Shown here piece by piece: positions 9,107 through 29,300 of a stretch of DNA of 64,000 nucleotides (position 1 is its first letter; each line of letters opens with the position of its first letter). A model generated the notes under the pieces. The model had not been told where the DNA came from and made no database searches. It was given only the letters and a program-made list of their open reading frames with translations. Both the position numbers and the translations under genes were made by a program. Source of the DNA: Bacteroidota bacterium (GTDB taxonomy: Bacteria > Bacteroidota > Bacteroidia > Flavobacteriales_D > Crocinitomicaceae); NCBI GenBank assembly GCA_030148165.1, contig JASBTZ010000003.1, forward strand, positions 558,001-622,000, given 5' to 3'.

Positions 9107-10624
9107 ATGAAAACTTCAACACTCCTCTTGACGATTGTACTTGTCACAAGCACAACTCCGACGTTTTCTCAAAACTGGAAAGTAACAGGAAACGGAAACA
9201 CGACCAGCGCCAACAACTTCGTCGGCACTACCGATAATCAAGCTTTGAATTTTAGAACCGATGATGTACAGAGAATGCACATTAGTAATTCCGCAAGTGG
9301 TTTGATTGGAATTGGAAACAATTTCTCAAATCCACAGTCCGTACTTCATATTAATGGAATGCAGAATGAAACAGGTAGTCTTTTTCAAACTACCACGAAC
9401 ATAGGAACTGACAACGTCTGGTCCATGAGTGCAACCAGCAATTTTGCACCTAGATTCATCGTTCAGAATCCTGCTAATACCTATGACGTTGAATTAGCCA
9501 CATATAACAATGGTGAGATCAACTTCTTCACTAATTATTCAGGTACGGGTGAAGCTCGATCCATGAGTATTCAAGGAGGCGGAGGAAATTTAGTTCACGG
9601 TCAAGTGGCTCTCAGCAATAATCTACCGTTGAATTTTGATGCGCAATCTCGCTTGCATCTTCACAAAACTATATTTGACGGTGGTGCTACAGCCGGTAAT
9701 TTCATTCAGTTCACAAATTCGAACACTTACGGAGGAGATATGCCAGGTCAAAATAGCGGATTACAAATCGGTACTCCATCTCAGAGTAACGCAGCATATA
9801 TAAGGCAATGGGAAGATGCTCCTTTACAATTCTTTGCAGGAGCGAACCAATCTGCAGGTGCATTTCCTCTGGTTAGATTACATATCAATGCCAATGTAGG
9901 ACAGGTTGATGAAGGGTTTATCGGTATAAATACGCAGGACCCAACTTCGCGATTGGATATTAATGGTGATCTCCGAATTCGACTCGCAGCGGAAGAAGAG
10001 AATCCTGACTTCCTACTGGTAGGTGTACAACATGCTGGAAACCCTAATGATTTGGATGTCCGACGAATGGCGCTTTCCGGAAATGCTAATAAATATCTAG
10101 CCGGAGATGGAAGCTGGAAAGACTTACCAAAGACTGCCGATGAAGAATTTATACAGGAATTGACTGCAGAGATAGCGAATCAAAGATCCCTTTTGGAAGA
10201 GAAGGATGCTGTAATTAATGACCTTAATGAACGATTGACTGCAATTGAGCAATGTCTGAAAAAACTAAATTTATTCGACGCTGAAGCGGAAAATATTGAA
10301 TCAACCCCGGAAGAGACACAGGAGATACTATCCAGATCAATCGAAGTTACATTGGCTGATAAGGAACAGATTGTACTGGATCAAAATGTACCAAATCCTT
10401 TTGCTGAAAGAACAACCATATCGTATTATCTTCCCGACTATGTATCTGAAGCATCCATTCAGTTCCACGATGGCATGGGACAGTTAATCAGTGAAGTTTT
10501 CATTAATGAAAGTGGTGGTGGAAGCCTTAATGTTTATGGTAGTGACCTCAGCACCGGAACATATACCTATACTCTTATAGCTGATGGGAAACCCGTTTCT
10601 ACTAAAAGAATGGTAAAGCCCTAA
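9107..10624 (+). CDS. Secreted protein with coiled coil and type IX secretion sorting domain
   Basis: Signal peptide at residues 1-21 (hydrophobic LLLTIVLVTSTTPTFSQ, cleaved around Gln21/22). Residues 22-330 are rich in Asn, Gly, Thr and Ser and read like the trimeric, beta-rich 'tail fibre-like' surface proteins of Bacteroidota (phrases such as LGIGTxxP: here FIGINTQDPTSRLDINGDLRI). Residues about 345-385 form a heptad-patterned coiled coil (EEFIQELTAEIANQRSLLEE), which in such proteins supports trimerisation. The last 80 residues are a Por/T9SS type A sorting domain (LDQNVPNPFAERTTISYYLP ... GTYTYTLIADGKPVSTKRMV). The protein is therefore expected to be exported by Sec, moved across the outer membrane by T9SS and anchored or released at the surface. 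No enzymatic motif seen. A candidate RNA structure lies directly upstream. Confidence 0.8.
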   Translation: MKTSTLLLTIVLVTSTTPTFSQNWKVTGNGNTTSANNFVGTTDNQALNFRTDDVQRMHISNSASGLIGIGNNFSNPQSVLHINGMQNETGSLFQTTTNIGTDNVWSMSATSNFAPRFIVQNPANTYDVELATYNNGEINFFTNYSGTGEARSMSIQGGGGNLVHGQVALSNNLPLNFDAQSRLHLHKTIFDGGATAGNFIQFTNSNTYGGDMPGQNSGLQIGTPSQSNAAYIRQWEDAPLQFFAGANQSAGAFPLVRLHINANVGQVDEGFIGINTQDPTSRLDINGDLRIRLAAEEENPDFLLVGVQHAGNPNDLDVRRMALSGNANKYLAGDGSWKDLPKTADEEFIQELTAEIANQRSLLEEKDAVINDLNERLTAIEQCLKKLNLFDAEAENIESTPEETQEILSRSIEVTLADKEQIVLDQNVPNPFAERTTISYYLPDYVSEASIQFHDGMGQLISEVFINESGGGSLNVYGSDLSTGTYTYTLIADGKPVSTKRMVKP

Positions 10625-10636
10625 CGTATAGAGCTA

Positions 10637-12034
10637 CTAAAGTTTTTCCGATTTGGCGATAATTGCTGACACCGTTGCGTCACTAGTTACATTGATCACG
10701 GTGCGACACATATCCAGAATCCGATCCACAGGTAGTACAATGGCTATCCAAAGCGGATTGAGTCCTACTGACTCGAGCACAATCATTAACATGATCAATC
10801 CCGCACTTGGTACGGCAGCCGCTCCGATGGATGCCAGCGTCGCTGTTGCAACAATTCCCAATTGTTGATATAGCGATAGGTCGACATCGTGATATTGCGC
10901 CAGGAATATAACGGCAACCGCCTGATAAAGTGAGGTTCCGTCCATATTGACTGTAGCTCCAATGGGTAAAACAAAATCCGTCACCTTATCCGAAACTTTC
11001 AGGTTATTATTTACGCAATCAATCGTAACGGGGAGCGTTGCTGCACTCGAACTTGTAGAGAATGCGAGGAACTGCGCAGGACTTAATCCCCTGAAGAACT
11101 CCGAATAGGAGATTTTTACGCCAAATAAACGCAGCAAAAGTGGATAGAACAGGAATAGCATAGCCATTAGACCACCAAAAACTACGAGTGAATAGAATCC
11201 TAGTCGAATAAACACATCAATCAGCTCTTCGAAGCTGTCTGCTGCACCAGCCAGAACCCCGGCCATTAAACAGAAAACAAAGAAAGGAGCGGCTTTCATG
11301 ACGATATGAACCATTTGGATAAAGACATCATTCATCCCTTCGAAGAAGTCTTTTATTCGATTCGTGCGTTCCGTCTTAATCAAGGCAAGTGTAATGCCGA
11401 AAAACAAAGAGAAAAAGATGACCTGGAGCATTAGCTTCCCATCTGACAACGAAAGAACCAGGTTCTGAGGAACCATGTCTACTAAAGGTTGAAGCGGGCT
11501 TTGCTTTTTATTAGCATCCACATCCGCTTTCTTTTCCATGGCTTTTTGATATTCATCCTTCTCCAGATCTGCAGCCATACCTGTACGCACCTTATTTATC
11601 AAAGAGCTATCAGCAGTGGCCAATAAATTTTTCCCATCCTTAATTTCCACCTGGTTGTCAAACGCCCATATCTCGTACGATAGCCTTCGTTCATTTCGTG
11701 TATTTGTATCACCTGCCTTTCCAGGAGCCAGAACGTTGACTAGTAATAACCCGACTGTAACCGAGAATACCGTTGTGATCAAGTACATCCCCAGTGTTTT
11801 GAAACCCATTCTTCCCAGGCTCGAAATATCTCCCAATCCTGCAACACCGCTGATGATTGAAAACATGACGAGTGGAACTGCGATGAATTTCAAACAGTTG
11901 ATAAAGATGGTTCCGAAAGGATTTATCCAGTCTAATGTAAACTCATTCAGTCCAAACTTACCGGACATTAATGCCCAGACCACACCTAACAACATTGCGA
12001 TCAGTATCTTCCAGTGGAGTGCTAACTTTGTCAT
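10637..12034 (-). CDS. Dicarboxylate/amino acid:cation symporter (GltP/SdcS, DAACS family)
   Basis: Inner-membrane secondary transporter of glutamate, aspartate or C4-dicarboxylates driven by Na+ or H+; 465 aa. Diagnostic motifs of the two re-entrant loops and TM7-TM8 are clear: FSTSSSAATLPVTIDCV and LPIGATVNMDGTSLYQAVAV, then GIVATATLASIGAAAVPSAG and VDRILDMCRTVINVTSDAT. The Asp in RILDMCRT and the Arg are the usual substrate-binding pair. A hydrophilic, charged insert of about 70 residues (roughly residues 112-182) separates TM3 and TM4, longer than in enterobacterial GltP. Convergent with the preceding T9SS gene (12 bases between stops). The exact substrate cannot be determined. Confidence 0.92.
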   Translation of the reverse strand: MTKLALHWKILIAMLLGVVWALMSGKFGLNEFTLDWINPFGTIFINCLKFIAVPLVMFSIISGVAGLGDISSLGRMGFKTLGMYLITTVFSVTVGLLLVNVLAPGKAGDTNTRNERRLSYEIWAFDNQVEIKDGKNLLATADSSLINKVRTGMAADLEKDEYQKAMEKKADVDANKKQSPLQPLVDMVPQNLVLSLSDGKLMLQVIFFSLFFGITLALIKTERTNRIKDFFEGMNDVFIQMVHIVMKAAPFFVFCLMAGVLAGAADSFEELIDVFIRLGFYSLVVFGGLMAMLFLFYPLLLRLFGVKISYSEFFRGLSPAQFLAFSTSSSAATLPVTIDCVNNNLKVSDKVTDFVLPIGATVNMDGTSLYQAVAVIFLAQYHDVDLSLYQQLGIVATATLASIGAAAVPSAGLIMLMIVLESVGLNPLWIAIVLPVDRILDMCRTVINVTSDATVSAIIAKSEKL

Positions 12035-12522: not shown

Positions 12523-13764
12523 ATGAAATTACTAGCTACTACATTATTTACTTTGCTTACATTATTTGGATTTAGTCAGACTTACTCAGCTACGGATAGC
12601 GTAATGGTTGTTGGAATAAACCAAAGTGGATTCAATAATAATTCTCGTGGATTCGAATTTACACCTAACACAGATCTAACATTAACACACATGGGGTTGA
12701 GGATACCTGGCACAACCGGTACTTATACCTGGGTGATTTTTGAAACTGCATCACAGACCATTGTGCATCAACAACCGGTTACAATAGTGCCGACTATAGG
12801 CGTTTGGGAATACGAACCTATCAGCGCACCAGTTACTCTAAATCAGGGAACAAATTACATTTTAATCCTCAATCACCAGGGAACGCAATCAACACCGTAC
12901 TATTACGAAACGAACAATCAGGTGAATTTCAATTTAACTTATGTACAAATGCGTTATTGTAACAGCTGTGGGCCTACAACATTCCCGAGCTCTACTTTGA
13001 ATAACTATCATTACGGAACACCTGACTTCCTGTTTAATACATGTGCAACACCAAATCAAGTCACTTTGAATGAGACGGCTTGTGATTCTTATTTGTCGCC
13101 AAGTGGTAATTACAACTGGACATCCTCAGGAACATACGTAGATACGGTAACGGGACCTGGTTGTGACACGATATATACTATCAATCTCGCAATTAAAAAT
13201 ACGACTATGAGTTCGATAAACGTGACTGATTGTGATAGTATATACACATCGCCAAGTGGAAACTATACTTGGACTTCAGCGGGAACATATTATGATACCA
13301 TATCGAATTCAGCTGGATGCGATTCTATAATGACAATAAACCTAACATTTGCCTCGCCTACATATGGAACTCAAACTGAAAGTGCTATTGACATGTATAC
13401 TTGGCCTCTCAATGGACAAACCTATACCACATCAGGCACTTATGTAGATACCATTCAAAATTCAGCAGGCTGTGACAGTATTGTAACACTAAATTTAACG
13501 GTAGAATACACCGGAATCGAGGAAGGAATACTAAGCAATTTAACTATCTATCCGAACCCTGCAAGTAATCATATTAACGTGAGTGTTCCGGAAGAACTGC
13601 TAGGCACGAATTTCAAGATCTATGATAATAAAGGAAAAGTTGTTTTAAGTGGCAAGCTTGAGCAATCTGAAATCAAGATAGAAATCGATGAATGGGCGAA
13701 CGGAGCCTACATTCTACATGTGAATGGAGCTTTTGAGAAATCATTCCGAATAGTAAAAGAATAA
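12523..13764 (+). CDS. Secreted protein with three Cys-Asp-Ser repeats and T9SS sorting domain
   Basis: Signal peptide (residues 1-18, LLATTLFTLLTLFGFSQ). Residues 20-170 form a beta-rich domain, probably jelly-roll like, with a cysteine pair RYCNSCGP. Residues about 183-327 hold three repeats of about 45 residues built as CDSxxxxSGNYxWTSxGTYxDT...GCDSIxTINL; the first two keep the leading Cys, while in the third it is replaced (SAIDMYTWPLNGQTY). These repeats are common in large adhesin-like proteins of Bacteroidota. The C-terminal 75 residues (LTIYPNPASNHINVSVPEEL ... NGAYILHVNGAFEKSFRIVK) form a type A T9SS sorting domain. The gene stands alone between its own promoter and a strong terminator. 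Function beyond surface exposure is unknown. Confidence 0.8.
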   Translation: MKLLATTLFTLLTLFGFSQTYSATDSVMVVGINQSGFNNNSRGFEFTPNTDLTLTHMGLRIPGTTGTYTWVIFETASQTIVHQQPVTIVPTIGVWEYEPISAPVTLNQGTNYILILNHQGTQSTPYYYETNNQVNFNLTYVQMRYCNSCGPTTFPSSTLNNYHYGTPDFLFNTCATPNQVTLNETACDSYLSPSGNYNWTSSGTYVDTVTGPGCDTIYTINLAIKNTTMSSINVTDCDSIYTSPSGNYTWTSAGTYYDTISNSAGCDSIMTINLTFASPTYGTQTESAIDMYTWPLNGQTYTTSGTYVDTIQNSAGCDSIVTLNLTVEYTGIEEGILSNLTIYPNPASNHINVSVPEELLGTNFKIYDNKGKVVLSGKLEQSEIKIEIDEWANGAYILHVNGAFEKSFRIVKE

Positions 13765-18163: not shown

Positions 18164-19321
18164 ATGAAAACATCTTTACTTAAAATTGGACTTCTCGGAA
18201 TCGTTCTGATTAGCCTGAATTCTTTTGCTCAACAGGTTATGAACGGAAGTTTTGAAACCTGGGGTGCGTCAAACACATACACATTAAATGATCCTCAGAA
18301 TTGGGGAACGCTGAATTTTGACGCAGTTGGCTTACCTCAAACATCATATGAGTCAACAGCGAGTCCATTCCACGGTACAAAAAATGTCAAAATGGAAACT
18401 ATGACTGGTCACGGTGCTCTTGGAATTGACGATACAATTGGAGGAGCGATATTCTATAATGGAGATCCTTTTGTTTCACTTGCAAGTCCATATGCAGGTA
18501 GACCACGCTCAATCGCGTATAATTATAAAAGCAATATAGTTAATTCAGATACTGCATGGATATTCCTAGCACTAACCAAATGGAATGGTTCCGCACAGGT
18601 TACGGTAGGAGAAGCTTTATCTTATATAACATCTACTACCACGAGCTGGACATCTGAGAATCTTCAAATAAATTACTATTCAGGTCAAATGCCGGATTCG
18701 ATACTCTTTGTTGCACAATCTAGTGCAGGATCATGGCCATTTTACCTTAGCACCTATCCGGCACAGCCGGGAACTTCGCTGGAAATGGATGCAGTAACTA
18801 TCTGTGATTCCATCATTGCCAGCTTCACGGAAACCGTGAATGGAGGAACTGCAGACTTTACTGAAACTACATCTGCGACAGGAATGGAGTCACTACTTTG
18901 GGACTTTGGAGATGGAAATACTTCAACGTCATCTTCTCCTTCACACACCTATGCTACCAATGGAAGCTATCCAGTGAGCTTAACAGTTACCGATAGCTGT
19001 GGAAACGATACGACTATTACAAATAACGTCACTATCAGCACAATTGGTCTCGCTAGCCTATTCAAGGCGAACAGCACGGTCTCAATCTATCCTAACCCGA
19101 CTTCGGGACTCGTAAATATTGATTTTGCAATAAACGATGTTCAAGAGATCAGTGTTGTAATTAGCGATATTACAGGACGTGAGATCACTACTTTATTTCA
19201 TGGAGAGACTGCATCAGAACAACTTTCTTTTGATACAAACAATTTGAATTCAGGCTCTTATTATATCCAAATAAGATCTGCCGAAGGTGGAGTTATTATG
19301 AAGAAGCTGATCATTCAGTAA
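18164..19321 (+). CDS. Secreted PKD-domain protein with T9SS sorting domain
   Basis: Signal peptide (residues 1-22, ending NSFAQ). Residues about 25-215 form a beta-sandwich domain (NGSFETWG ... YTLNDPQNWG ... SYESTASPFHGTKNVKME), the PCMD/carbohydrate-binding-like layout seen in surface proteins of Bacteroidota. A PKD domain follows (about 225-290; WDFGDGNTSTSSSPSHTYATNG is its core, with the WDFGDG signature). The C-terminal 75 residues (VSIYPNPTSGLVNIDF ... GSYYIQIRSAEGGVIMKKLIIQ) form a type A T9SS sorting domain. The gene is monocistronic with its own terminator. Likely a surface or secreted binding protein; the ligand is unknown. Confidence 0.82.
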   Translation: MKTSLLKIGLLGIVLISLNSFAQQVMNGSFETWGASNTYTLNDPQNWGTLNFDAVGLPQTSYESTASPFHGTKNVKMETMTGHGALGIDDTIGGAIFYNGDPFVSLASPYAGRPRSIAYNYKSNIVNSDTAWIFLALTKWNGSAQVTVGEALSYITSTTTSWTSENLQINYYSGQMPDSILFVAQSSAGSWPFYLSTYPAQPGTSLEMDAVTICDSIIASFTETVNGGTADFTETTSATGMESLLWDFGDGNTSTSSSPSHTYATNGSYPVSLTVTDSCGNDTTITNNVTISTIGLASLFKANSTVSIYPNPTSGLVNIDFAINDVQEISVVISDITGREITTLFHGETASEQLSFDTNNLNSGSYYIQIRSAEGGVIMKKLIIQ

Positions 19322-19410: not shown

Positions 19411-19638
19411 ATGGTGATCATTACACATCAGAGAGAGAAATGTATTGGCTGCAACTATTGTGTTGAGTTAGCCTATCAGCGATGGCGTATGTCTAAGAAA
19501 GACGGTAAAGCTACCCTCCTCGGTGGTGAGAATAAAAAGGGTTTCCATACGGTTCGTGTAGATGATGAAGAGTATGAGTCGAATAAGAAGGCCGGAGAAG
19601 CTTGTCCGGTGAACATCATCAAGGTCAAAAAGATCTAA
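19411..19638 (+). CDS. Mono-cluster [4Fe-4S] ferredoxin
   Basis: Small cytosolic electron carrier, 75 aa from the ATG at 19411 (a longer frame opens upstream inside the terminator and is not plausible). Ligands: CIGCNYC (Cys11, Cys14, Cys17) and the distal Cys in EACPVNII near the C-terminus, the arrangement of Pyrococcus/Desulfovibrio-type single-cluster ferredoxins. In those proteins a second Cys pair forms a disulphide (CxxxCP after the cluster, and one mid-protein); here the first is replaced (VELAYQRW), so the disulphide is absent. All four cluster ligands are Cys. Convergent with mpl, the two coding regions overlapping by four bases. The redox partner is unknown. Confidence 0.8.
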   Translation: MVIITHQREKCIGCNYCVELAYQRWRMSKKDGKATLLGGENKKGFHTVRVDDEEYESNKKAGEACPVNIIKVKKI

Positions 19639-20990
19639 TTTGTTAGCTCTTTGCCGAGTTCATCGTAATCGATTCCATCGAAATTTCCGGAAGACATCAT
19701 TAACAGAACGGCATTATCCCAATCCTGAGACCGTATAAAATCAAGTACCTCAGCCGTCTCGTTCAATACAGTTATTCCTCCCCCAAAGCCATTATAAACC
19801 AGCTCTTTGCTAATCGGTTCCAGTTTCTTATGGGCTACTACTTCCGGACTAAAATAAACAACAGCCTCATCGGCGTCTTTCATGGCATTCTCATATTGAG
19901 GTAGAAACTCCTTCTTCAAAGAAGAAAACGTATGCAGTTCCATGCAGGCTACGAGTTTGCGATCAGGATATTGTTCTTTTACTGCGGCTGTAGTCGCCTT
20001 TAATTTGGATGGCGAATGCGCAAAATCTTTGTACATAACAAAGCCCTCAGATTCAACGACTTTCTGTAGCCTCTTCCCTGCTCCTGTGAAACCTTTCATT
20101 GCTTTAAAGAAGCTCGCAGGTTCAATCCCTATTGCCTGCGCAATTCGCATGGCCCCCATAAGGTTCTGTAAATTATGTGCTCCAAATATTTGCAGGGGAT
20201 ACGAACTTCCATCGAAGGTGAGCTCGGTGCCATTCGGGGTTGTAGTATAAGAGGGTGTTTGATAAGGAACGGTTTGAATCTTATCCGCATATTTTTCTCC
20301 AAGCGCTTTTACCTCAGGATCTTCTTCATTGTAGACCAATGTTCCATCCGGCTCGATTAGATCACAGAAAATATCGAACTGCTCGACATAGCCTTCGAAG
20401 GTTGGAAAGACATTGATGTGATCCCAGGCAATTCCACTGATGATCGCGACATTCGGTCTGTACAGGTGAAATTTTGGACGTCTGTCAATAGGCGAGCTAA
20501 GATATTCATCCCCTTCCAGGATCATGATATCAGCGTCATCCGTGATCTTTACCATACAATCGTAGCCCTCTAACTGCGCTCCGACCATGTAATCGACATT
20601 GAGGCCAATTTGATTGATAGCATGCAGTAGCATAGAAGTTATGGTTGTTTTCCCATGAGAACCACCTATAACCACTCTCGTCTTATTCTTTGATTGCTCA
20701 TAGAGGTATTCCGGATAAGAGAAGATCGGCAGACCAAGTTCTTTCGCGCGTAACAGTTCTGGATTATCTTCACGAGCGTGCATTCCGAGTATCACTGCGT
20801 CTAAGTCATCGGTAATCCTGCCAGCAGACCAGCCAATATCTGATGGCAATATTCCCTCTCTATCCAAACGCGAACGGGAAGGCTCAAAGATCTCATCGTC
20901 CGAACCTGTAACTTCCATCCCTTTGCGACTTAAAGCGATCGCAAGGTTATGCATGGCGCTGCCACCAATGGCTATAAAGTGAACTTTCAT
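19635..20990 (-). CDS. mpl: UDP-N-acetylmuramate:L-Ala-gamma-D-Glu-meso-DAP ligase (Mpl-like)
   Basis: Mur-ligase family enzyme, 451 aa, that reattaches recycled tripeptide to UDP-MurNAc in peptidoglycan recycling. N-terminal Rossmann domain MKVHFIAIGGSAMHNLAIAL with the GSDDEIFEPSRSRL block; ATP loop GGSHGKTTITSMLLHA (about residues 106-121); central LEGDEYLSSPIDRRPKFHLY, which distinguishes Mpl from MurC; and C-terminal domain containing KDFAHSPSKLKATTAAV with the DHxHxP-equivalent Ala-His-Ser-Pro. The start overlaps by one base the stop of the upstream membrane protein gene. Known members prefer tripeptide but accept tetra- and pentapeptide. Confidence 0.9.
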   Translation of the reverse strand: MKVHFIAIGGSAMHNLAIALSRKGMEVTGSDDEIFEPSRSRLDREGILPSDIGWSAGRITDDLDAVILGMHAREDNPELLRAKELGLPIFSYPEYLYEQSKNKTRVVIGGSHGKTTITSMLLHAINQIGLNVDYMVGAQLEGYDCMVKITDDADIMILEGDEYLSSPIDRRPKFHLYRPNVAIISGIAWDHINVFPTFEGYVEQFDIFCDLIEPDGTLVYNEEDPEVKALGEKYADKIQTVPYQTPSYTTTPNGTELTFDGSSYPLQIFGAHNLQNLMGAMRIAQAIGIEPASFFKAMKGFTGAGKRLQKVVESEGFVMYKDFAHSPSKLKATTAAVKEQYPDRKLVACMELHTFSSLKKEFLPQYENAMKDADEAVVYFSPEVVAHKKLEPISKELVYNGFGGGITVLNETAEVLDFIRSQDWDNAVLLMMSSGNFDGIDYDELGKELTN

Positions 20991-21346
20991 TATTTACGCT
21001 TCATTAGTACCCTCACCTCAAATATATTAGGTACCACTAAAAATACCACTCCAATGTCTGCAATGAGGTTATAAGTCTCAACCGTATTTTCATCAATGAA
21101 AAAATTTGGGATCATAATTGCCGCCAATCCTCCATAATAGATCCAGTCCCACCAATTCTGCTGTTTTGTAATATATCGCCTTGCGATCTGAATCAAAATA
21201 TATCCGAGTGCCAGTAACATGACATATACCGGTATGTTTTTCATTGAATCGTAATCTGAATGGGTCCAGAAATAATAAATGATCACTCCGCTTACTCCCA
21301 ATGAAAGTAGCACGAGCGTTGTTAAGATCGCTTTTGATTGTTTCAT
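20990..21346 (-). CDS. Small membrane protein (118 aa), function unknown
   Basis: Four predicted transmembrane segments: ILTTLVLLSLGVSGVIIYYFW (6-27), IPVYVMLLALGYILIQIA (39-56), WDWIYYGGLAAIMIPNFFI (67-85) and YNLIADIGVVFLVVPNIFEV (92-111). Aromatic and basic residues flank the helices (KQQNWW). I do not recognise the family. Its stop overlaps the mpl start by one base, so it is co-translated with mpl and may be connected with envelope functions, which is inference only. Starts at the ATG 21344-21346, 78 bases after apbE. Confidence 0.6.
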   Translation of the reverse strand: MKQSKAILTTLVLLSLGVSGVIIYYFWTHSDYDSMKNIPVYVMLLALGYILIQIARRYITKQQNWWDWIYYGGLAAIMIPNFFIDENTVETYNLIADIGVVFLVVPNIFEVRVLMKRK

Positions 21347-21424: not shown

Positions 21425-22477
21425 TTATTCTGCCTCTAAGTCCCGGAAAAGTTGATTCGATGCATATTCCATCTCCCCTTTGTCATTCGAATAGATTAAA
21501 TAGACACCCAGATCAAGATTATTGTTCTCCAGAAATTGCAGCGTTTTGTCAACACCGAACACCATGAAGGCGGTCGCATAAGCATCTGCATCCATACAGT
21601 TGTCAGCTATAACTGTTGCACTAAGAAGTGAGTGCTGCACGGGAAAACCGGTCTTGGGATTTAGGGTATGTGCGTAGCGAATACCGTCTTTCTCATAGAA
21701 CTTGCGATAATTTCCACTGGTAGCCACCGCCTTATTAGAAACTGACACAATGTTATCTATATTTCGATCCAGGTTTTCGTTAGCCGGCGAATCGATGCCA
21801 ATACGCCAATCGGAATTTTCCGCATTCTTTCCGGACACATAAACCTCTCCGCCAATTTCAATGTAGTAATCCTGATACCCCTTACTCTTCAGAAAATCAC
21901 TGACAACGTCAACAGCTAAACCCTGAGCGATCGCGTTGAAATCAAGTTTGAAATGAGCTGTAAACTTCTTAACAATGATTGTATCTCCGTTAAACCAGAT
22001 ACGATGATGTCGATTTTGTTCGAAGGAAATGTATTGCATTAAGGAATCAACCTGGTCCTTTTCCAAGGGTGTTTCCAGATCATTCATAAACCCCCAGCCT
22101 TCAACCAGTGGATAAACAGAAGGATCGAATGCTCCGCCTGTTAAGGTATATATCTCGAGGGCGCGATCGTAACATCGTTTGAAGTACCCTGTGGTATCAA
22201 TTATACTGATAGAATCCTGAGCTGCATTAATGCGACTAATAACACTCGTATCGATGTACGTGGATAATACCTGATCGAATCTAGCAAACAAGGCATTTAG
22301 ATCACGGTTAGTTACCGGATCGGCTGTGTTAATTAAAGTAACCTGGTATGTTGTACCCTGTGTGTACCCCTGAAGGATTTCTTTGGGACGGTTAACGCTT
22401 GTACAAGCGCTAAGAATGAATATGGAATTAATAATGGCGCTCCAGTGAAGGATCCTGCGTTTCTTTGTTCCAAACAT
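21425..22477 (-). CDS. apbE: FAD:protein FMN transferase (ApbE), lipoprotein
   Basis: Periplasmic or outer-leaflet flavinylating enzyme that moves FMN from FAD to a Thr/Ser of target proteins such as NqrB/NqrC, RnfG and FMN-binding domain proteins. From the ATG at 22477 the protein is 350 aa with a lipoprotein signal ending in the lipobox LSAC (Cys25). Conserved blocks: GTTYQVTL, the DPSVYPLVEGWGF segment, LDFNAIAQGLAVD, the YYIEIGGEVYVSG stretch, the ATSGNYRKF block with AHTLNPKTGFP, and DAYATAFMVFG with the Mg2+-binding Asp. The longer frame starting at 22546 lacks a signal peptide and lies wholly inside the neighbour. The start overlaps the 3' end of the giant repeat gene by 50 bases. The flavoprotein target is not in this window. 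Confidence 0.9.
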   Translation of the reverse strand: MFGTKKRRILHWSAIINSIFILSACTSVNRPKEILQGYTQGTTYQVTLINTADPVTNRDLNALFARFDQVLSTYIDTSVISRINAAQDSISIIDTTGYFKRCYDRALEIYTLTGGAFDPSVYPLVEGWGFMNDLETPLEKDQVDSLMQYISFEQNRHHRIWFNGDTIIVKKFTAHFKLDFNAIAQGLAVDVVSDFLKSKGYQDYYIEIGGEVYVSGKNAENSDWRIGIDSPANENLDRNIDNIVSVSNKAVATSGNYRKFYEKDGIRYAHTLNPKTGFPVQHSLLSATVIADNCMDADAYATAFMVFGVDKTLQFLENNNLDLGVYLIYSNDKGEMEYASNQLFRDLEAE

Positions 22478-25400
22478 GCTGAAGACTTGATTGTCCGTTC
22501 TTAGTATATGTAATTCCGTGAAGCGTCTGCGTTCGAATGTATACATCCGCGTGCCCTTCTCTCACAACTATTCTTCGCGTGATGAATGCCACAACGATTC
22601 CGTTCTGATCTTTGCGGGTAAAGTTTTCCTGACTCACACCTTCAGGATATTCTGATCCAAGTTCATTTGGTACTCGAGACTGTGGTCCCGGAGTTGCGTC
22701 CACATCACCTATCTGCTCTGCGGTTTCATAGTGCTTTTCCTTTTCACCGATATTTCGATCTGCATTGTTTGCATCGATGGTACGTGTCATGTCCTTCAGG
22801 TTCTCCGCATTTTCCTCGTTCTTATCCTTCTCTTCTATTGTATTGGACTCAACATCTGTATACACATGATCAATCCTTTTCTTCACATTGAGACGTTCCT
22901 CTTCATCGGATTTATTATCTGCTTCGTAATCTACACGCGCTTTTTTATCCATCATTTCAACGTATTCGATCTTCTTTGCTAAAGCTTCGTCTGCTTTTTC
23001 ATTGATCTCACCGTTGGTTTTTACCTCTTCATTGATTGCCCCTTTATTAGTCACATACTTCTCGTGCTCATCCTTACTGTACTCGTATTCCGCATCAGCC
23101 AACGCCTTGTTATTTGCCTTGATTATCTCTGTACTTTCTTTACGATTCTCATCGCGACCTTCTGAATCATCTCTGATCATTAGCTTAATATCCGCAAGTT
23201 CCTGATCTGTTTTCTGTAAATGGGCTTCTTTATCGTCTATTATCTCTCTATCAGTATTGTTCACACGTTCTTTCACGTCCACCAGAGCCGTATTGTTTTT
23301 ACCTGCTATTCTAGCGTCTTCTGCTGACTTCTCTTCGACGTTCAGTTCAATCTGACGTAGTTGATCTTTGTTTTGCAATAAAGTTTCGTGCTTAGACTTT
23401 CCGCGTTCATTGTTCATCTCAGATATTTCCTTCTCTTTAGCAATCAGAATCTGATTCGCCTCTTCTCGCTCCTCAACGTCGTCCTTCGTGTTTTCGCTTA
23501 CTTCGCGGTGAACATCTTTTATTTTCTGATCGGAAGTAACGTTCAGATTGTGGTCACTCTTAACGCGATCACTGGTCTCTATAGCTTGCTCCGTATTGTA
23601 TGCAGTCATGATCTCCGTGTTTTCAGCATACACATTGATGTCTTCTCCGTACTCAAGCGCAACTTCTTTATTAACCACGTCTAGCATAACCTGATCTGAA
23701 ATATTCTCATTGCGCTCATAGTTAATATCATTTCTGAAATCTTCCTGTAGTTCTGATTCCGCTTTTCTAAGGGCCTCAGCGATTGCTTGTTGATTCAGAT
23801 CTGCCTCACCAGCATCACGTGAAATCTTCATGTGCTCTTTATAGATCTCATTCGAAGTATTATAATGATCAGCTGTTTTCTCTCTGGTCATTTCTGTTTC
23901 AGCATCATGTATGTTACCGTACTGTGTACGTAACTGATTCCCTTTCAATAGTTTCAGGTCGGCCTCTGACTTAGCCAAAATAAACTCACCATCCATTACG
24001 GTATTATCGAATGGATCTCCTAAGTCTTCCAAATCCGCAGAGTTCATCACAACCGGGTTTAGGATCGCATCTATTTCATCCAATTTCTTTTGTGGATATG
24101 GATCTGTAGGCATGATATTAAGTGCGCGCTTGTAGTAATCAGATGCCTTTTTCCAATCCTTTAAATTAAAGTTCTTATCGGCTGCCGCAATGATTTTGTT
24201 ATATTGCTCACGAGCTTCATCTATACCCTGATCTTTAGCTCGGCGAACACATTCTTCGATGCGCTGCTGAGCATATGTGCTTAACGGATCTACTGAAAGT
24301 GCCTGCTGATAAGCCTGCTTTGCTTCCATATATTTCTTTTCATTGAATAGGTTGTCGGCTTTTTTAATCAAAGCATTAAACGCATTTTTCTTACCTATTT
24401 CTTCCGCTTCTTTATTGGCTAGATCATCTAAAATCTGCTGAATCTCCTTTATCTTATTCTCAGCAGCCAGGTCACCCGGTTTAGCTGAAAGTGCATTTTG
24501 GAATTCACTCAAAGCTTGCTCATAGCTTTCCTTGCTCTGATAGTCATTTCCTTTAGCCATGTACTCAGCGTACAATTGATTCATCAGTTCCGCATTCTTT
24601 TCAGCAGCGATTCGATCTTTAATTTCGGCGATCTTATCCTTCGGCAGTTGTTCTTCCGGTTTTTTAGCACTAGCACCTTCATAAGCAGTTATAGCCTCCT
24701 TATAATTCTTAGTAGCCGCCAGGTCATCACCCTTTTTCAATAGCTCCTTGTATGCCTCATCAATTTGTCGCATACGAGTTATCTCTTCAATTAATTGATC
24801 AGGTCTTGGATCATCAGGTTTCAAGGTCTTAGCTCTTTTCGCTAACTCAGTCGCTCGATCGAAGTCTCCTTCGTTCATTTTGTTCTCTGCAACGGTTAAA
24901 ATTTTCTCATATTCCTTGTTTGCTTCACCTTTTTGCTGTTCACAACGCTTCGCTTCATTTGCTTTATCCACCGGAGCTTGCTCTGTTGGCTTCAAGGCCA
25001 GCGCCTGATTAAAGATATCAATAGCCTCAAGACACTTGTCCGACTCCATTAACTGGTCTCCCTGCGCCATCAATTCATTATACTGCTTATCAATCTCAGC
25101 TTGTTCAGCTTGCTCATTGGCTATCAGCCTTTCTACTTCCGCAATCTTGTCTTTTGGCAACTGCTCTGTAGGTTTAATGTTTCCAGCCTTTTTATATGCT
25201 TCGATTGCTCCCTTGTAGTCATTATTAGACTTCAATTCATCTCCTTCAGCGATGGCATTGTTGTAATCTTTTTCTTGTTGCTGCTGATCTGCATTAGCTT
25301 GGATTATACCTTTAAGCTCTGCTATTTTATCTTTTGGAAGTTGCTCGCTCGGTTTCAAATCAGAAGCTTCCTGATATTTATCAACCGCTCCATTTAAGTC

Positions 25401-27974
25401 ATTCCTATTTTCTAAGCTCTGTGCCTCTGCCATGAGCTTACTATAGTTTTCCTCTAATTTTTCTGCATCGGCCAATTCCTGAAGCTTCGCATTGATCTCA
25501 TTAATCTTATCCTTGACCTCCTGATCGTCTATTAAGCTTAATGCTTCAGTCAGTTTTACTTTAGCCTGATCATATTTTTCGTTGTCCGCCAGCTCATATC
25601 CCTCTGCCTTAAGCTTATCAAACTCTTCTTGCTTTTGCTGTGCTGATTTCAACGCTGCTAGCTTCTCATTGACTGCAGCTAATCCATCTGTGGCCTTTTT
25701 ATTTCCTGGATCCAGGGCCAAGACTTCATTGTACTTATCTTTGGCGTCGTTGTACTTTTCGCTATCAAACAAAGACTGACCGTCTTTTAACAAAGCTTCG
25801 ATCTGAGCAAGTTTTTCAGCATTTGCTTCCGCTTCAGCAATCTTTTCGTTAATCAATTCAATGCGATCTTTCGCATAGGTGCTTCCCGAATCATAAGTCA
25901 ATGCTTCGTTGTATTTATCTTTTGAAGACTTCCAATCCTCTTTATCAAAGAGCGCATCCGCAGCTGCAATTGCCTCCTCAAATTTCGCTTTCTGATCTGC
26001 TGCTTCCTGTTCTTTAGCTAGAATAGTCTTGATTTCTGCAATTCTTTCCTGTGGATGTGAATCTCCCCCATCCATAACATCATTGGATTGAAGCTTAATT
26101 GCCTCTTCGTATTTAACCAATGATTCATTCCATTTCGAAGCATCAAATAGGTTGTCTGCCTCTTTAACTGCCGCTTCGTATTTCGCTTGTCGGTCAGCTT
26201 CAGCATCCCGTTCTGCTATTAACCCGTTGATTTCTTTAATCTTATCTTTAGGAAGCTGCTGCGTATCATCAATATCCAGGGCAGCTTCAAATTTCGACTT
26301 CGATTCCTCAAGTTGTCCTCCGATCAAAAGTGCATTCCCTTCTTCGATCAACTTATCATACTCTTCTTTCATCGCGGCCGCCTTCTCTGCCTTTTCTTTA
26401 GCAGTCTTAGCATCCAGTAGCTTTTGATTCACTTCAGGATCGCGGTTGAGCGCCAACGCCGCTTCATATTTTTCAATAGCCAAAGGAAAATCTGTGTCCG
26501 TCATTGCCTGATCTCCGGCAGCAACAAGCTCATTGAATTCTTTTAACTCCTCAGCTTTTGCATCCTGTTCTGCCTTCTTCTGTTGCGCCAGCGCTAATTG
26601 CGCCTTCGCTTCCTGATGTTCAGCGTCTAGTGTTAATACCTCTTCGAATTTAGCGATTGCATTCGCGTAATCTTCGGATTCCATGTCGCTCTTACCTGCG
26701 CTCATTAATTCCTCAATTTTTTCCTGCAACTCAGCAGCCGCTTTGGCTTCTGCAATTTTCTGATTACATATCTCAATACGACCTTTGACAAAGGTTGAAG
26801 AACTCTCGTAAGTCAGTGCTTCTTCATAATTAGCCTTTGCATCCTCGTAATTCTCCAAATTGAATAGGGAATCTGCTGTTGCCACCAGCTGCTGATATTT
26901 CTTCTTTTTAGCTTCCTGTTCTTGCTGTGCTTCCAGCATTTTGTCAATCTCAGCTAGTTTCTTTTTAGGGTACTCTTCACTAGGTTTCAGCTTTGATGCC
27001 TCTGTATATTTATCGCGAGCGGCTTTCAGGCTTTTTTGTTTGAAGAACATATCTGCGTTCTTAATCACAGCATTGTATTTCTCATTATTAGCCTCTTCTA
27101 TCTTTTTCGCCGCAATTTGTTCTTTTAATGCTGCGATCTGATCTTTGGGATACTGTTCATTCTTTTTCGTCAGTGCTTCTTCATATTTAGAAACAGCTCC
27201 TTCGAGATTACCATTATCTCGCATATTATCTGCAGCTGCGATCAGGTTTTGATACTCTGTCTCCAGCTGTTGATTCTTCAACTCCTGTTCCTTCTGAGCC
27301 TGGATCAAGGCATCTAACTCCACAATCTTTGCAGCAGGATATGGTTCCTTGGGTTTATAAGTAAGGGCTTCTTCAAATTTCTCCAGGGCCTTTTCGTATT
27401 CTTCCTTCTCGAATGCGGCATCACCGTCCTGAATCGCTTTCTGATACAGCATCTCCTGCTCTGCCGCTTCTTTCTCGGCCTCAAGTAGAAGCTCCTGTAT
27501 CTTATTCTTTGTTTTTTGACTTGCTGAGCGATCAAAATCCAGGACAAAATTCTTTGAGTCCCAAAAAAAGCTTGCTACCGGTTCATTCTCCAGAAAGGAG
27601 AAGTCGACATTTTCTCTTTCAGCAAAAAGATCAATATCCAAAGGAGGTATTGGAACCTCATTTCCAGCCGGAAGATCTTCAACATAGACATTCTTCAGGT
27701 CGAAGATGATTTTTTTACTGACCATACCCGGTTTTGAGTAAATGAGCTCGTACTTACCCGTTTTTGGACCGCTTGCGCTAATGGCGTATTTACCGTTGGA
27801 AGAAGATTGCGTTGTAGCGATTACATTACCGTTGTGTACGATCTTTATTGTTACCCCACCTTCGTTGGTACCCATATCCTGATTGGACAATCTACCTTTT
27901 ATATTGTAATTCAAGTCCTGTGACCACGCAGTCATGGCCATAAGGAACATAAGAACCTGAATTATATACTTCAT
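22428..27974 (-). CDS. Giant secreted protein: 19 TPR-like repeats plus long charged coiled coil (1848 aa)
   Basis: Signal peptide (residues 1-19, ending AWSQ). Residues 20-110 form a carboxypeptidase-regulatory-like beta domain (NYNIKGRLSN ... GKYAISASG ... GKYELIYSKPG), as in SusC N-termini. From residue 176 to about 1330 I count 19 imperfect units of about 60 residues, each of the form YxxLIxxADxLFxxxxYxxA followed by xxKYxEALxLxPxxxYPKDK and a long Glu/Ala/Lys helix. They are TPR-like helical hairpins joined by longer helices. Residues about 1330-1790 are almost only Asp, Glu, Lys, Asn and Arg-rich helix with no TPR pattern, probably coiled coil. A compact C-terminal domain (about 70 residues, GSEYPEGVSQENFTRKDQNG) ends the protein; it has no T9SS sorting domain. 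The gene overlaps apbE. Function unknown; a rod-like periplasmic or outer-membrane scaffold is my inference. Confidence 0.8.
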   Translation of the reverse strand: MKYIIQVLMFLMAMTAWSQDLNYNIKGRLSNQDMGTNEGGVTIKIVHNGNVIATTQSSSNGKYAISASGPKTGKYELIYSKPGMVSKKIIFDLKNVYVEDLPAGNEVPIPPLDIDLFAERENVDFSFLENEPVASFFWDSKNFVLDFDRSASQKTKNKIQELLLEAEKEAAEQEMLYQKAIQDGDAAFEKEEYEKALEKFEEALTYKPKEPYPAAKIVELDALIQAQKEQELKNQQLETEYQNLIAAADNMRDNGNLEGAVSKYEEALTKKNEQYPKDQIAALKEQIAAKKIEEANNEKYNAVIKNADMFFKQKSLKAARDKYTEASKLKPSEEYPKKKLAEIDKMLEAQQEQEAKKKKYQQLVATADSLFNLENYEDAKANYEEALTYESSSTFVKGRIEICNQKIAEAKAAAELQEKIEELMSAGKSDMESEDYANAIAKFEEVLTLDAEHQEAKAQLALAQQKKAEQDAKAEELKEFNELVAAGDQAMTDTDFPLAIEKYEAALALNRDPEVNQKLLDAKTAKEKAEKAAAMKEEYDKLIEEGNALLIGGQLEESKSKFEAALDIDDTQQLPKDKIKEINGLIAERDAEADRQAKYEAAVKEADNLFDASKWNESLVKYEEAIKLQSNDVMDGGDSHPQERIAEIKTILAKEQEAADQKAKFEEAIAAADALFDKEDWKSSKDKYNEALTYDSGSTYAKDRIELINEKIAEAEANAEKLAQIEALLKDGQSLFDSEKYNDAKDKYNEVLALDPGNKKATDGLAAVNEKLAALKSAQQKQEEFDKLKAEGYELADNEKYDQAKVKLTEALSLIDDQEVKDKINEINAKLQELADAEKLEENYSKLMAEAQSLENRNDLNGAVDKYQEASDLKPSEQLPKDKIAELKGIIQANADQQQQEKDYNNAIAEGDELKSNNDYKGAIEAYKKAGNIKPTEQLPKDKIAEVERLIANEQAEQAEIDKQYNELMAQGDQLMESDKCLEAIDIFNQALALKPTEQAPVDKANEAKRCEQQKGEANKEYEKILTVAENKMNEGDFDRATELAKRAKTLKPDDPRPDQLIEEITRMRQIDEAYKELLKKGDDLAATKNYKEAITAYEGASAKKPEEQLPKDKIAEIKDRIAAEKNAELMNQLYAEYMAKGNDYQSKESYEQALSEFQNALSAKPGDLAAENKIKEIQQILDDLANKEAEEIGKKNAFNALIKKADNLFNEKKYMEAKQAYQQALSVDPLSTYAQQRIEECVRRAKDQGIDEAREQYNKIIAAADKNFNLKDWKKASDYYKRALNIMPTDPYPQKKLDEIDAILNPVVMNSADLEDLGDPFDNTVMDGEFILAKSEADLKLLKGNQLRTQYGNIHDAETEMTREKTADHYNTSNEIYKEHMKISRDAGEADLNQQAIAEALRKAESELQEDFRNDINYERNENISDQVMLDVVNKEVALEYGEDINVYAENTEIMTAYNTEQAIETSDRVKSDHNLNVTSDQKIKDVHREVSENTKDDVEEREEANQILIAKEKEISEMNNERGKSKHETLLQNKDQLRQIELNVEEKSAEDARIAGKNNTALVDVKERVNNTDREIIDDKEAHLQKTDQELADIKLMIRDDSEGRDENRKESTEIIKANNKALADAEYEYSKDEHEKYVTNKGAINEEVKTNGEINEKADEALAKKIEYVEMMDKKARVDYEADNKSDEEERLNVKKRIDHVYTDVESNTIEEKDKNEENAENLKDMTRTIDANNADRNIGEKEKHYETAEQIGDVDATPGPQSRVPNELGSEYPEGVSQENFTRKDQNGIVVAFITRRIVVREGHADVYIRTQTLHGITYTKNGQSSLQHVWNKETQDPSLERHY

Positions 27975-28163: not shown

Positions 28164-29300
28164 TTATTTCACCGTTTTCTTTTCATAGTGAATATCTCTG
28201 GACTTTAAATACTCAAGAATATAATTGAAACAAACTTCGTGTCGACCAACGAGTTCAGGCGGGAAAACACCACGCTCTTCAAACAGCCCATCCAAAAACA
28301 TGTTTGCCGCTGCGGTCGCTGTGTAGCCTGTTGTTCTAGCCATAGATGACGTTCGTGTTTCAGCACAATATTCGTCATGAAGGTTATATTCGATGCGGAC
28401 CGGATCTCCATTCGAATCAACCCCGGCAACAGTGATACGCATGACTGTTAGCTCTTCTTCTTCATCTCCTAACTTCCATTCATCAAACAATATTTTACAC
28501 GTGAAATCCAACGGCTTGATCATTTTATCATCCAATTCTATCATTTTTTCACTGAAAAAACCACTTTCCTTCAAAACCTTCACGTATTCCACATGACCGG
28601 GATATCTTAAGGTTTTCTCCTTCATATTCGGTATATGTGGCATTGTATGAATAATGGACCGTAAACCGTCAGAGTTAAATGATTCAAGGGTGCCAACACC
28701 ATCAAATTCGACATATTCACAGTCAGTTAGTGGCTCCCGAATGATCAGCTCGCCATTTTCAACGTATCGCGCCGGTCTCGTATATTCCTCAATCACATCC
28801 ACCGGTGAAAACGGAGCTTTATAACAGAAAGGCCATTTCTTTGCTTTAGGCAATCCACCTACCAGACATTCAAAGAAATCCAGTTTATACTTCTCATTGT
28901 AATATCCCAAAATGATGTTGTCCATTCCCGGCGCTACTCCACAATCGACAATAGCGGTAACGTCTTTCTCTGTCGCGAGATCATGTAAGTCCAATGAATT
29001 TTCCGGGAAAAAAGAAATATCAACTACGTGTTTACCGGTTTCAATGATTGTTTTTAACGTGCTATACCCTAGAAATCCAGGGACTGCACATATGACAAGA
29101 TCAAAAGGACGAATGCACTCTTGAAGTTTTTGCTTATCGCAAACATCCAGCACTATCGTTGTTAAATCGGGATTTCCCTGTTTAATTTTTTGCAAAACGG
29201 TGTCGCTTCTATCGCTTACGGTAACCTGATGTTTTTTTGCCATATCGATAGCCATTGCGCTACCTACCATTCCTGCACCTAATACAATTATATTAGCCAT
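28164..29300 (-). CDS. Saccharopine dehydrogenase (glutamate-forming, LYS9-like half)
   Basis: 378-aa oxidoreductase. N-terminal Rossmann motif IIVLGAGMVGSAMAIDMA (residues 4-21), then AVPGFLGYSTLKTIIETGKH and DCGVAPGMDNIILGYY, followed by the saccharopine dehydrogenase C-terminal dimerisation/substrate domain (residues about 125-350; GGLPKAKKWPFCYKAPFSP). This is the SDH half of the bifunctional AASS enzyme of animals, which oxidises saccharopine to glutamate and 2-aminoadipate semialdehyde. The lysine-ketoglutarate reductase half is encoded at 32043-33263, so the window holds both steps of the saccharopine pathway in separate transcripts. Transcribed away from gcvT across a 236-base gap that contains a large palindrome. 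Carboxyspermidine (carboxynorspermidine) dehydrogenase is a less likely alternative. Confidence 0.82.
   Translation of the reverse strand: MANIIVLGAGMVGSAMAIDMAKKHQVTVSDRSDTVLQKIKQGNPDLTTIVLDVCDKQKLQECIRPFDLVICAVPGFLGYSTLKTIIETGKHVVDISFFPENSLDLHDLATEKDVTAIVDCGVAPGMDNIILGYYNEKYKLDFFECLVGGLPKAKKWPFCYKAPFSPVDVIEEYTRPARYVENGELIIREPLTDCEYVEFDGVGTLESFNSDGLRSIIHTMPHIPNMKEKTLRYPGHVEYVKVLKESGFFSEKMIELDDKMIKPLDFTCKILFDEWKLGDEEEELTVMRITVAGVDSNGDPVRIEYNLHDEYCAETRTSSMARTTGYTATAAANMFLDGLFEERGVFPPELVGRHEVCFNYILEYLKSRDIHYEKKTVK

Follow-up and report, generated by a model that had tools for sequence, protein, structure and literature searches.

PorE (PG1058) of the type IX secretion system (T9SS) is the nearest described protein that we found to combine TPR units with a carboxypeptidase-regulatory-like domain (CRD). 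The available part of its description presents an exported multi-domain protein with the order TPR, beta-propeller, CRD and OmpA_C-like domain (PMC5053529), and the accessible portion of a second source gives PorE as a lipoprotein (PMC7192894). Sorting domains of the T9SS are short, lie at the extreme C-terminus and are carried by signal-peptide proteins of Bacteroidota. Two types of such tails, A and B, are distinguished in the accessible part of the source (PMC9143113). For single domains, the nearest described folds are the transthyretin-like domains of SusC-type transporters (NTE) and carboxypeptidase D, which are attached to a beta-barrel or a peptidase, and the TPR domains of FKBP52 and FKBP51, which have a long final helix.

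Our analysis concerns a 64,000-nucleotide stretch of DNA from a member of the Crocinitomicaceae (the window; all positions are counted from its first nucleotide). An ORF on its minus strand at 22428..27974 has an ATG start and encodes 1848 aa, the position and length given by the first-pass annotation, and stops are abundant on the plus strand across the same interval. The anatomy given there was also confirmed: a signal peptide, a transthyretin-like beta domain, 19 TPR-type units, a charged stretch of 455 residues and a compact C-terminal domain follow one another in that order. This protein, here called the rod protein, has TPR units and a CRD in common with PorE, but it consists of a CRD, 19 TPR units, a charged stretch and an unnamed domain; it has no lipobox in residues 1-40, and no OmpA or propeller model matches it at E ≤ 1.

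The new point, as judged from sequence, is the conserved, unnamed C-terminal domain. About half of the Bacteroidia genomes sampled encode exported proteins, most of them rich in TPR units, that terminate in this domain, and it matched no Pfam or NCBIfam model in our searches; this represents a gap in the understanding of the envelope of the group. If the domain is a docking or sorting tail, it would provide a sequence handle for finding every rod with the same partner, and the question of how Bacteroidia build structures longer than the periplasm would become testable.

Anatomy of the rod protein

Structures were predicted for two segments, residues 1-430 (built from an alignment of 33 sequences; mean pLDDT 92) and residues 1208-1848 (mean pLDDT 70, the confident parts being the last TPR units and the C-terminal domain). 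The signal peptide (residues 1-19; 27918..27974, minus strand) was read by eye as signal-peptidase-I type with Gln at +1, and residues 2-15 are helical in the model. It is followed by the beta domain (residues 21-97; 27684..27914, minus strand), which spans residues 21-92 in the model. The Pfam family CarboxypepD_reg (PF13620) gives the window protein an E-value of 1.4e-4 and 22.6 bits, under the curated cut-off of 32.3 bits. The architecture is kept among the 28 aligned proteins, window included, with CarboxypepD_reg matched in 23 (E ≤ 0.01) and TPR_2 in 21. Re-examined Foldseek matches superpose SleC (9h68) on residues 18-152 of the model (Z 9.6, 3.0 Å, 103 aligned), and both the SusC NTE domain (9hfj; Z 8.7, 2.6 Å, 79 aligned) and the TTL domain of carboxypeptidase D (5aq0; Z 8.6, 2.4 Å, 80 aligned) on the beta domain. 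By its predicted fold the N-terminal domain is a member of the CarboxypepD_reg/transthyretin-like group, with a sub-cut-off profile score in the window. The fold common to residues 21-123 or so and the SusC-type and carboxypeptidase D domains is, in the rod protein, at the head of a soluble rod rather than on a beta-barrel or a peptidase. A conserved linker, recognized from the alignment consensus and the model strands, covers residues 98-148 (27531..27683, minus strand) and includes a short beta hairpin at 134-147.

The TPR array (residues 177-1308; 24051..27446, minus strand) was delimited by a unit profile, shuffles, TPR_2 and model helices, and the 19 imperfect units of about 60 residues originally counted by inspection were all recovered. 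With a profile iterated on the rod protein, successive units start 53-66 residues apart (mode 60), and the unit E-values are all below 1e-16, but these are flattered because the profile was derived from those very units. Fifty residue shuffles of the repeat stretch gave 0-2 matches each at E < 0.05, the autocorrelation peaks at lag 60 (z = 14.7 versus shuffles), and TPR_2 scores 131 bits against a cut-off of 27. No tandem repeat array was reported at the DNA level.

The units are predicted as helical hairpins, the form in which they were first envisaged, and in the structure of residues 1-430 these hairpins are linked by helices of about 40 residues. Long helices of 36-43 residues (149-189, 211-253, 274-312, 335-372 and 394-429, the last truncated by the end of the model) alternate with short ones of 12-14 residues (193-206, 257-270, 316-329 and 376-387). 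At the other end of the array, the last TPR units (residues 1208-1307) have block mean pLDDT values of 76-92. The nearest fold is the TPR domain with a long final helix of FKBP52 and FKBP51, of which one hairpin and the long helix superpose (FKBP52, 1p5q: Z 11.1, 2.2 Å, 75 aligned); for helical repeats a Z below about 13 may reflect a common arrangement, and the TPR_2 sequence match is the firmer evidence. In contrast to FKBP-type TPR domains, the rod units are about 60 residues each and include the unit-linking helix of about 40 residues. When the whole array was aligned with consensus TPR superhelices, the rmsd was about 30 Å or more, so the rod array is not a compact superhelix. By the TPR_2 match, the 19 units and the fold, the rod protein is a TPR repeat protein.

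Some other models scored along the array and were set aside. The best stretch for the type IV pilus protein Amuc_1098 (NCBIfam NF042912; 66.9 bits against a curated cut-off of 750) lies inside the TPR array, as expected of TPR look-alike scoring. The Pfam matches to Glyoxalase (3/28 relatives) and tyr_de_CO2_C (2/28) are summed weak pieces along the array, with no single stretch passing alone in the rescanned proteins of L099, L101 and L106; six further rescanned relatives gave TPR, CarboxypepD_reg-type and SdrD_B-like families only.

Where the records carry titles, related loci are assigned to Flavobacteriales, Crocinitomicaceae, Cryomorphaceae, Vicingaceae, Bacteroidales and other Bacteroidota; five pattern matches on viral contigs, from a single-sequence query, included no relative. 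Literature on the rod protein was not found among the matches listed. The number of units varies between relatives: 16-25, with a median spacing of 60, in eight loci of the window's genus and in L076, L078 and L080 (19 in the window), and only 4, 14 and 1 recognizable units in L075, L079 and L081 of the same family, while L077 is interrupted by its contig end. Because unit number drifts in this way, the reach of the rod seems tunable.

The charged stretch (residues 1311-1765, 455 aa; 22680..24044, minus strand) was recognized by composition, model and a weak periodicity. Its description as a nearly pure Asp/Glu/Lys/Asn helix region was right as to charge but overstated as to purity, as these four residues make up about 45% of residues 1330-1760. 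The stretch also has a weak 54-residue repeat of its own, which the first-pass annotation does not mention (z 5.8 at lag 54 and 5.0 at lag 108). The stretch is probably helical, being modelled at low confidence (block pLDDT 44-82) as a near-continuous helix in two segments, 1326-1443 and 1449-1756. If straight, these approximately 426 modelled helical residues would extend for about 64 nm (0.15 nm per residue). The width of the periplasm is usually given as about 20-30 nm, and with the TPR array added to such a helix, a straight periplasmic span is unlikely. Of the earlier proposal of a long rod that could span the periplasm, the long rod is upheld by the predicted helices, whereas the straight span is improbable on length; the molecule would need to run parallel to the envelope, double back or protrude.

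The C-terminal domain and its carriers

The protein ends in a compact domain (residues 1769-1845; 22440..22670, minus strand), delimited by a 39-sequence alignment and by the model, in which it forms a beta meander and a short helix. Strands are predicted at 1779-1788, 1794-1805, 1808-1817, 1821-1825 and, briefly, 1828-1830, with the helix at 1832-1839, and block pLDDT is 77-90 from residue 1768 onward. The window protein fits the pattern of the family, in which LAxxYPEGVTEE...RRIVV...Y...YFKNG...W..ET, over about 70 residues, closes an exported protein. Among 39 members none of the Pfam or NCBIfam matches had an E-value below 0.001, and solved structures gave nothing better than E 0.54 by sequence; a well studied cell-surface enzyme, the finding that the first-pass annotation had named as contrary to its reading, did not appear by sequence in any of the three. 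The structure-search rows for the 641-residue model (1208-1848) cover the TPR part and are silent on the fold of the domain, and the tail motif had no match in a literature search.

Three weak matches to the domain were read as chance: Pfam LigD_Prim-Pol (4/39 members, best E 0.003), PT-HINT (3/39, best E 0.066) and an NCBIfam tartrate dehydrogenase model (2/39, best E 0.0011).

Homologues of the domain, which the first-pass annotation had recommended looking for, are plentiful. Queried with one sequence, 52 of 60 relatives and 72 of 295 genomes of the class had the domain; with the 39-sequence profile the count rose to 147 of the 295 sampled class (Bacteroidia) genomes, with up to eight copies each, and 121 of the 253 good-quality ones. 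It is present in 28 of 33 other genomes of the window's genus, with no match in genus genome G020 (99% complete). The distribution is uneven, as none of the eight sampled genomes of one family (f65) is in the match list. A phylum-wide draw of unspecified class make-up gave 3 of 247 genomes, all three in the window's order. On these sequence matches, the domain is common to many proteins of Bacteroidia and is not private to the rod protein. One small genome of 2.7 Mb (G179; L107 and L161-L164) has eight matches, including a pair on neighbouring genes (L107:8258-9580 and 9581-10870).

We collected 119 ORFs that carry the domain (E < 1e-5, more than 45 residues; the loci were partly hand-picked for spread of family and length). 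In all 119 the domain is extreme C-terminal, with 0-20 residues beyond it. Eighty-six carriers are closed at both ends, with lengths between 122 aa (probably a fragment) and 3124 aa; a few of the sampled loci share a genome, and 83 of the 86 are distinct in their last 80 residues.

A hydrophobic N-terminal segment was present in 75 of the 86 closed carriers, versus 201 of the 420 remaining closed ORFs, 120 aa or longer, of loci L068-L107. Several of the 11 carriers without it have a first start codon far upstream of the likely real start, and the one in L164 is a fragment. An SPase-I-like site followed by Gln was seen in 62 of the 72 distinct closed carriers with the segment, versus 69 of 201 control ORFs. 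By regular expression a lipobox was found in 6/72 carriers versus 32/201 controls, a difference that is not significant (p 0.16); by eye, all six (L154 among them) have the Cys within the hydrophobic stretch and an Ala/Ser-Gln site later.

The carriers are of few kinds. Among the 83 distinct closed carriers, TPR-like units number at least five in 56, two to four in 13, one in 3 and none in 11, so that 69 have at least two. The 14 with fewer than two units comprise seven coil-like proteins (L104, L162, L168, L169, L170, L178 and L180, in which D, E, K, R, N, Q and A together account for 65% or more of the residues), one MORN protein and six unassigned ones (L081, L161, L164, L167, L174 and one ORF of L171; one is a probable fragment). 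The MORN-repeat protein (L179:3881-6865) ends in the domain, as does a charged/polar-rich protein of 3124 aa with no recognizable TPR units (L168:2021-11395). In the 26 carriers shorter than 1150 aa, Pfam found CarboxypepD_reg (13), TPR families, MORN (1) and single matches to Cornifin, DUF1416 and DUF6795. For the same carriers the NCBIfam matches at E ≤ 0.001 were mainly TPR- or coil-type look-alikes such as BcsC and TolA; repeat-rich adhesin models and an OmpA-like model were each matched once. Neither collection gave an enzyme family at E ≤ 0.001.

Docking and sorting as possible roles for the domain

The reading that we prefer, and to which we would give an even chance, is that the rod protein is an exported, non-lipidated envelope scaffold rod docked by its C-terminal domain. 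The protein would stay with the envelope, either in the periplasm or against the outer membrane on its inner face. Its TPR stalk would bear binding surfaces and set the reach, and the C-terminal domain would serve for docking, attaching every such rod to a partner conserved in the envelope. Docking would account both for the always-terminal position of the domain and for its reuse on TPR, coil-like and MORN proteins. The same placement on signal-peptide proteins is, however, also typical of a secretion tail, which counts against a scaffold, and the strict terminal position leaves room for a sorting role. The low model confidence of the charged stretch, the lower unit counts in L075, L079 and L081 and the missing match in G020 also weigh against the scaffold.

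It is accordingly conceivable, if rather less probable, that the domain is an undescribed sorting or anchoring signal with which the rod crosses the outer membrane, by the T9SS or another route, and becomes a surface stalk. The extreme C-terminal position in every carrier ORF, the excess of SPase-I-like sites followed by Gln, the up to eight carriers per genome and a total rod length that the models place far above the width of the periplasm all fit such a signal. The known sorting domains are likewise short, C-terminal and found on exported proteins. The first-pass annotation saw no sorting domain, and this stands for the known models, in that no T9SS sorting model was among the matches listed for the rod protein or for members of the C-terminal domain; the correction needed is that the last 70 or so residues are a conserved, always-terminal domain. 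As a positive control, NCBIfam found TIGR04183 in the window at 18164-19321, and the window protein at 12523-13764 has a type A tail by motif only; two such proteins suggest that the type A system is used in this genome. In profile-profile comparison with nine type A tails the domain reached a probability of 0.4%, as against 99.7% and 99.9% for split-half controls. The lack of a TIGR04183 match and this low probability exclude the domain as a T9SS type A tail, to which it has no sequence or profile likeness. No type B model was listed for the rod protein or the domain, in scans run without a positive control and with two type B tails collected for comparison.

Known T9SS tails carry a wide range of cargo. 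The range of carriers found here is narrow, which is more in keeping with a domain for assembly or docking than with a sorting tag of general use and weighs against the sorting signal, as does a PorP-like gene cluster (identified by eye in L084) that occurs in just 3 of the 41 loci and is not adjacent to the rod gene. A more specific proposal, which we hold to be less probable still, is that the domain represents a third, so far undescribed class of sorting or anchoring tail in Bacteroidia, mainly for very long helical rods (TPR and coil-like, in one case MORN), which would build a surface or periplasmic brush of a height set by the number of repeats.

SprA, the T9SS translocon, was found in 286 of the 295 class genomes, including 145 of the 147 that have the domain. 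Of the nine genomes in which SprA is missing, seven have no match to the domain either, and the other two are G118 and G241 (56% complete); this pattern is in line with export by the T9SS. As SprA is nearly universal, co-occurrence is powerless to separate the scaffold and sorting readings. The same near-universality, and the TPR units and CRD common to the rod protein and PorE in the accessible description of PG1058 (PMC5053529), could be taken to mean that the rod protein is a T9SS accessory scaffold like PorE, bridging outer-membrane parts and the wall. We consider this improbable: the domain order differs, the OmpA and propeller models and the lipobox are missing from the rod protein as noted above, and 141 of the 286 SprA-positive genomes have no match to the C-terminal domain, which is therefore not a core part of the T9SS.

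Neighbours of the rod gene

The gene apbE (FAD:protein FMN transferase; 21425..22477, minus strand; Pfam ApbE, 255 bits) follows the rod gene. The overlap of 50 bases reported at first pass is real if the ATG at 22477, which precedes a signal of lipoprotein type, is taken as the start of apbE; for the first-start ORF the overlap is 119 bases. With first-start ORFs, apbE overlaps the rod gene on the same strand in all eight genus loci and in L076 and L078; in L077 and L080 the two genes do not overlap, and apbE begins 3 and 69 bases downstream, respectively. The overlaps in relatives favour the joint expression that had been suggested, within a limit: apbE is near the rod gene in 12 of the 41 loci, all in the window's family.

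This arrangement might indicate a partnership with ApbE, in which the rod protein would be flavinylated or would belong to an extracytosolic electron path. The acceptor in ApbE-flavinylated proteins is a motif of the [ST]GA[ST] type. None occurs in the 1848 aa of the rod protein, and the rod is spread far more widely than its proximity to apbE, so that we regard a working partnership as very improbable. We found no functional tie of the rod protein to ApbE, and a literature search on ApbE gave no match. For the preferred scaffold, apbE and mpl would be operon neighbours rather than working partners.

In the eight genus loci the order on one strand is rod gene, apbE, a protein of 118-143 aa and mpl. 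The mpl/murC-like ligase of the window (19635..20990, minus strand) scores 231 bits with NCBIfam murC and 163 bits with mpl, both sub-cut-off. The gene mpl, the other neighbour that the first-pass annotation had proposed looking for in relatives, follows the rod gene on the same strand, at a distance of no more than about 2.3 kb, in 11 of the 41 loci; L081, L096 and L105 are the three that do not belong to the genus. Between apbE and mpl, and next after apbE in the eight genus loci, the window has a probable membrane protein of 118 aa (20990..21346, minus strand), which shows a faint likeness to the Lnb transmembrane domain (20.3 bits, where the cut-off is 25.2).

Beyond the window's family, none of the downstream neighbours recurs widely among the 41 loci, and no partner for the proposed scaffold was found there. 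The most widespread neighbour is a divergently transcribed upstream gene that resembles, by eye, an FAD-dependent amino-acid oxidase; it is present in 22 of the 41 loci, in eight families, and in 15 of the 33 loci outside the genus. The window's genome has a weak partial match to this gene elsewhere only, and at the corresponding place (28164-29300) the window has a saccharopine-dehydrogenase-like gene.
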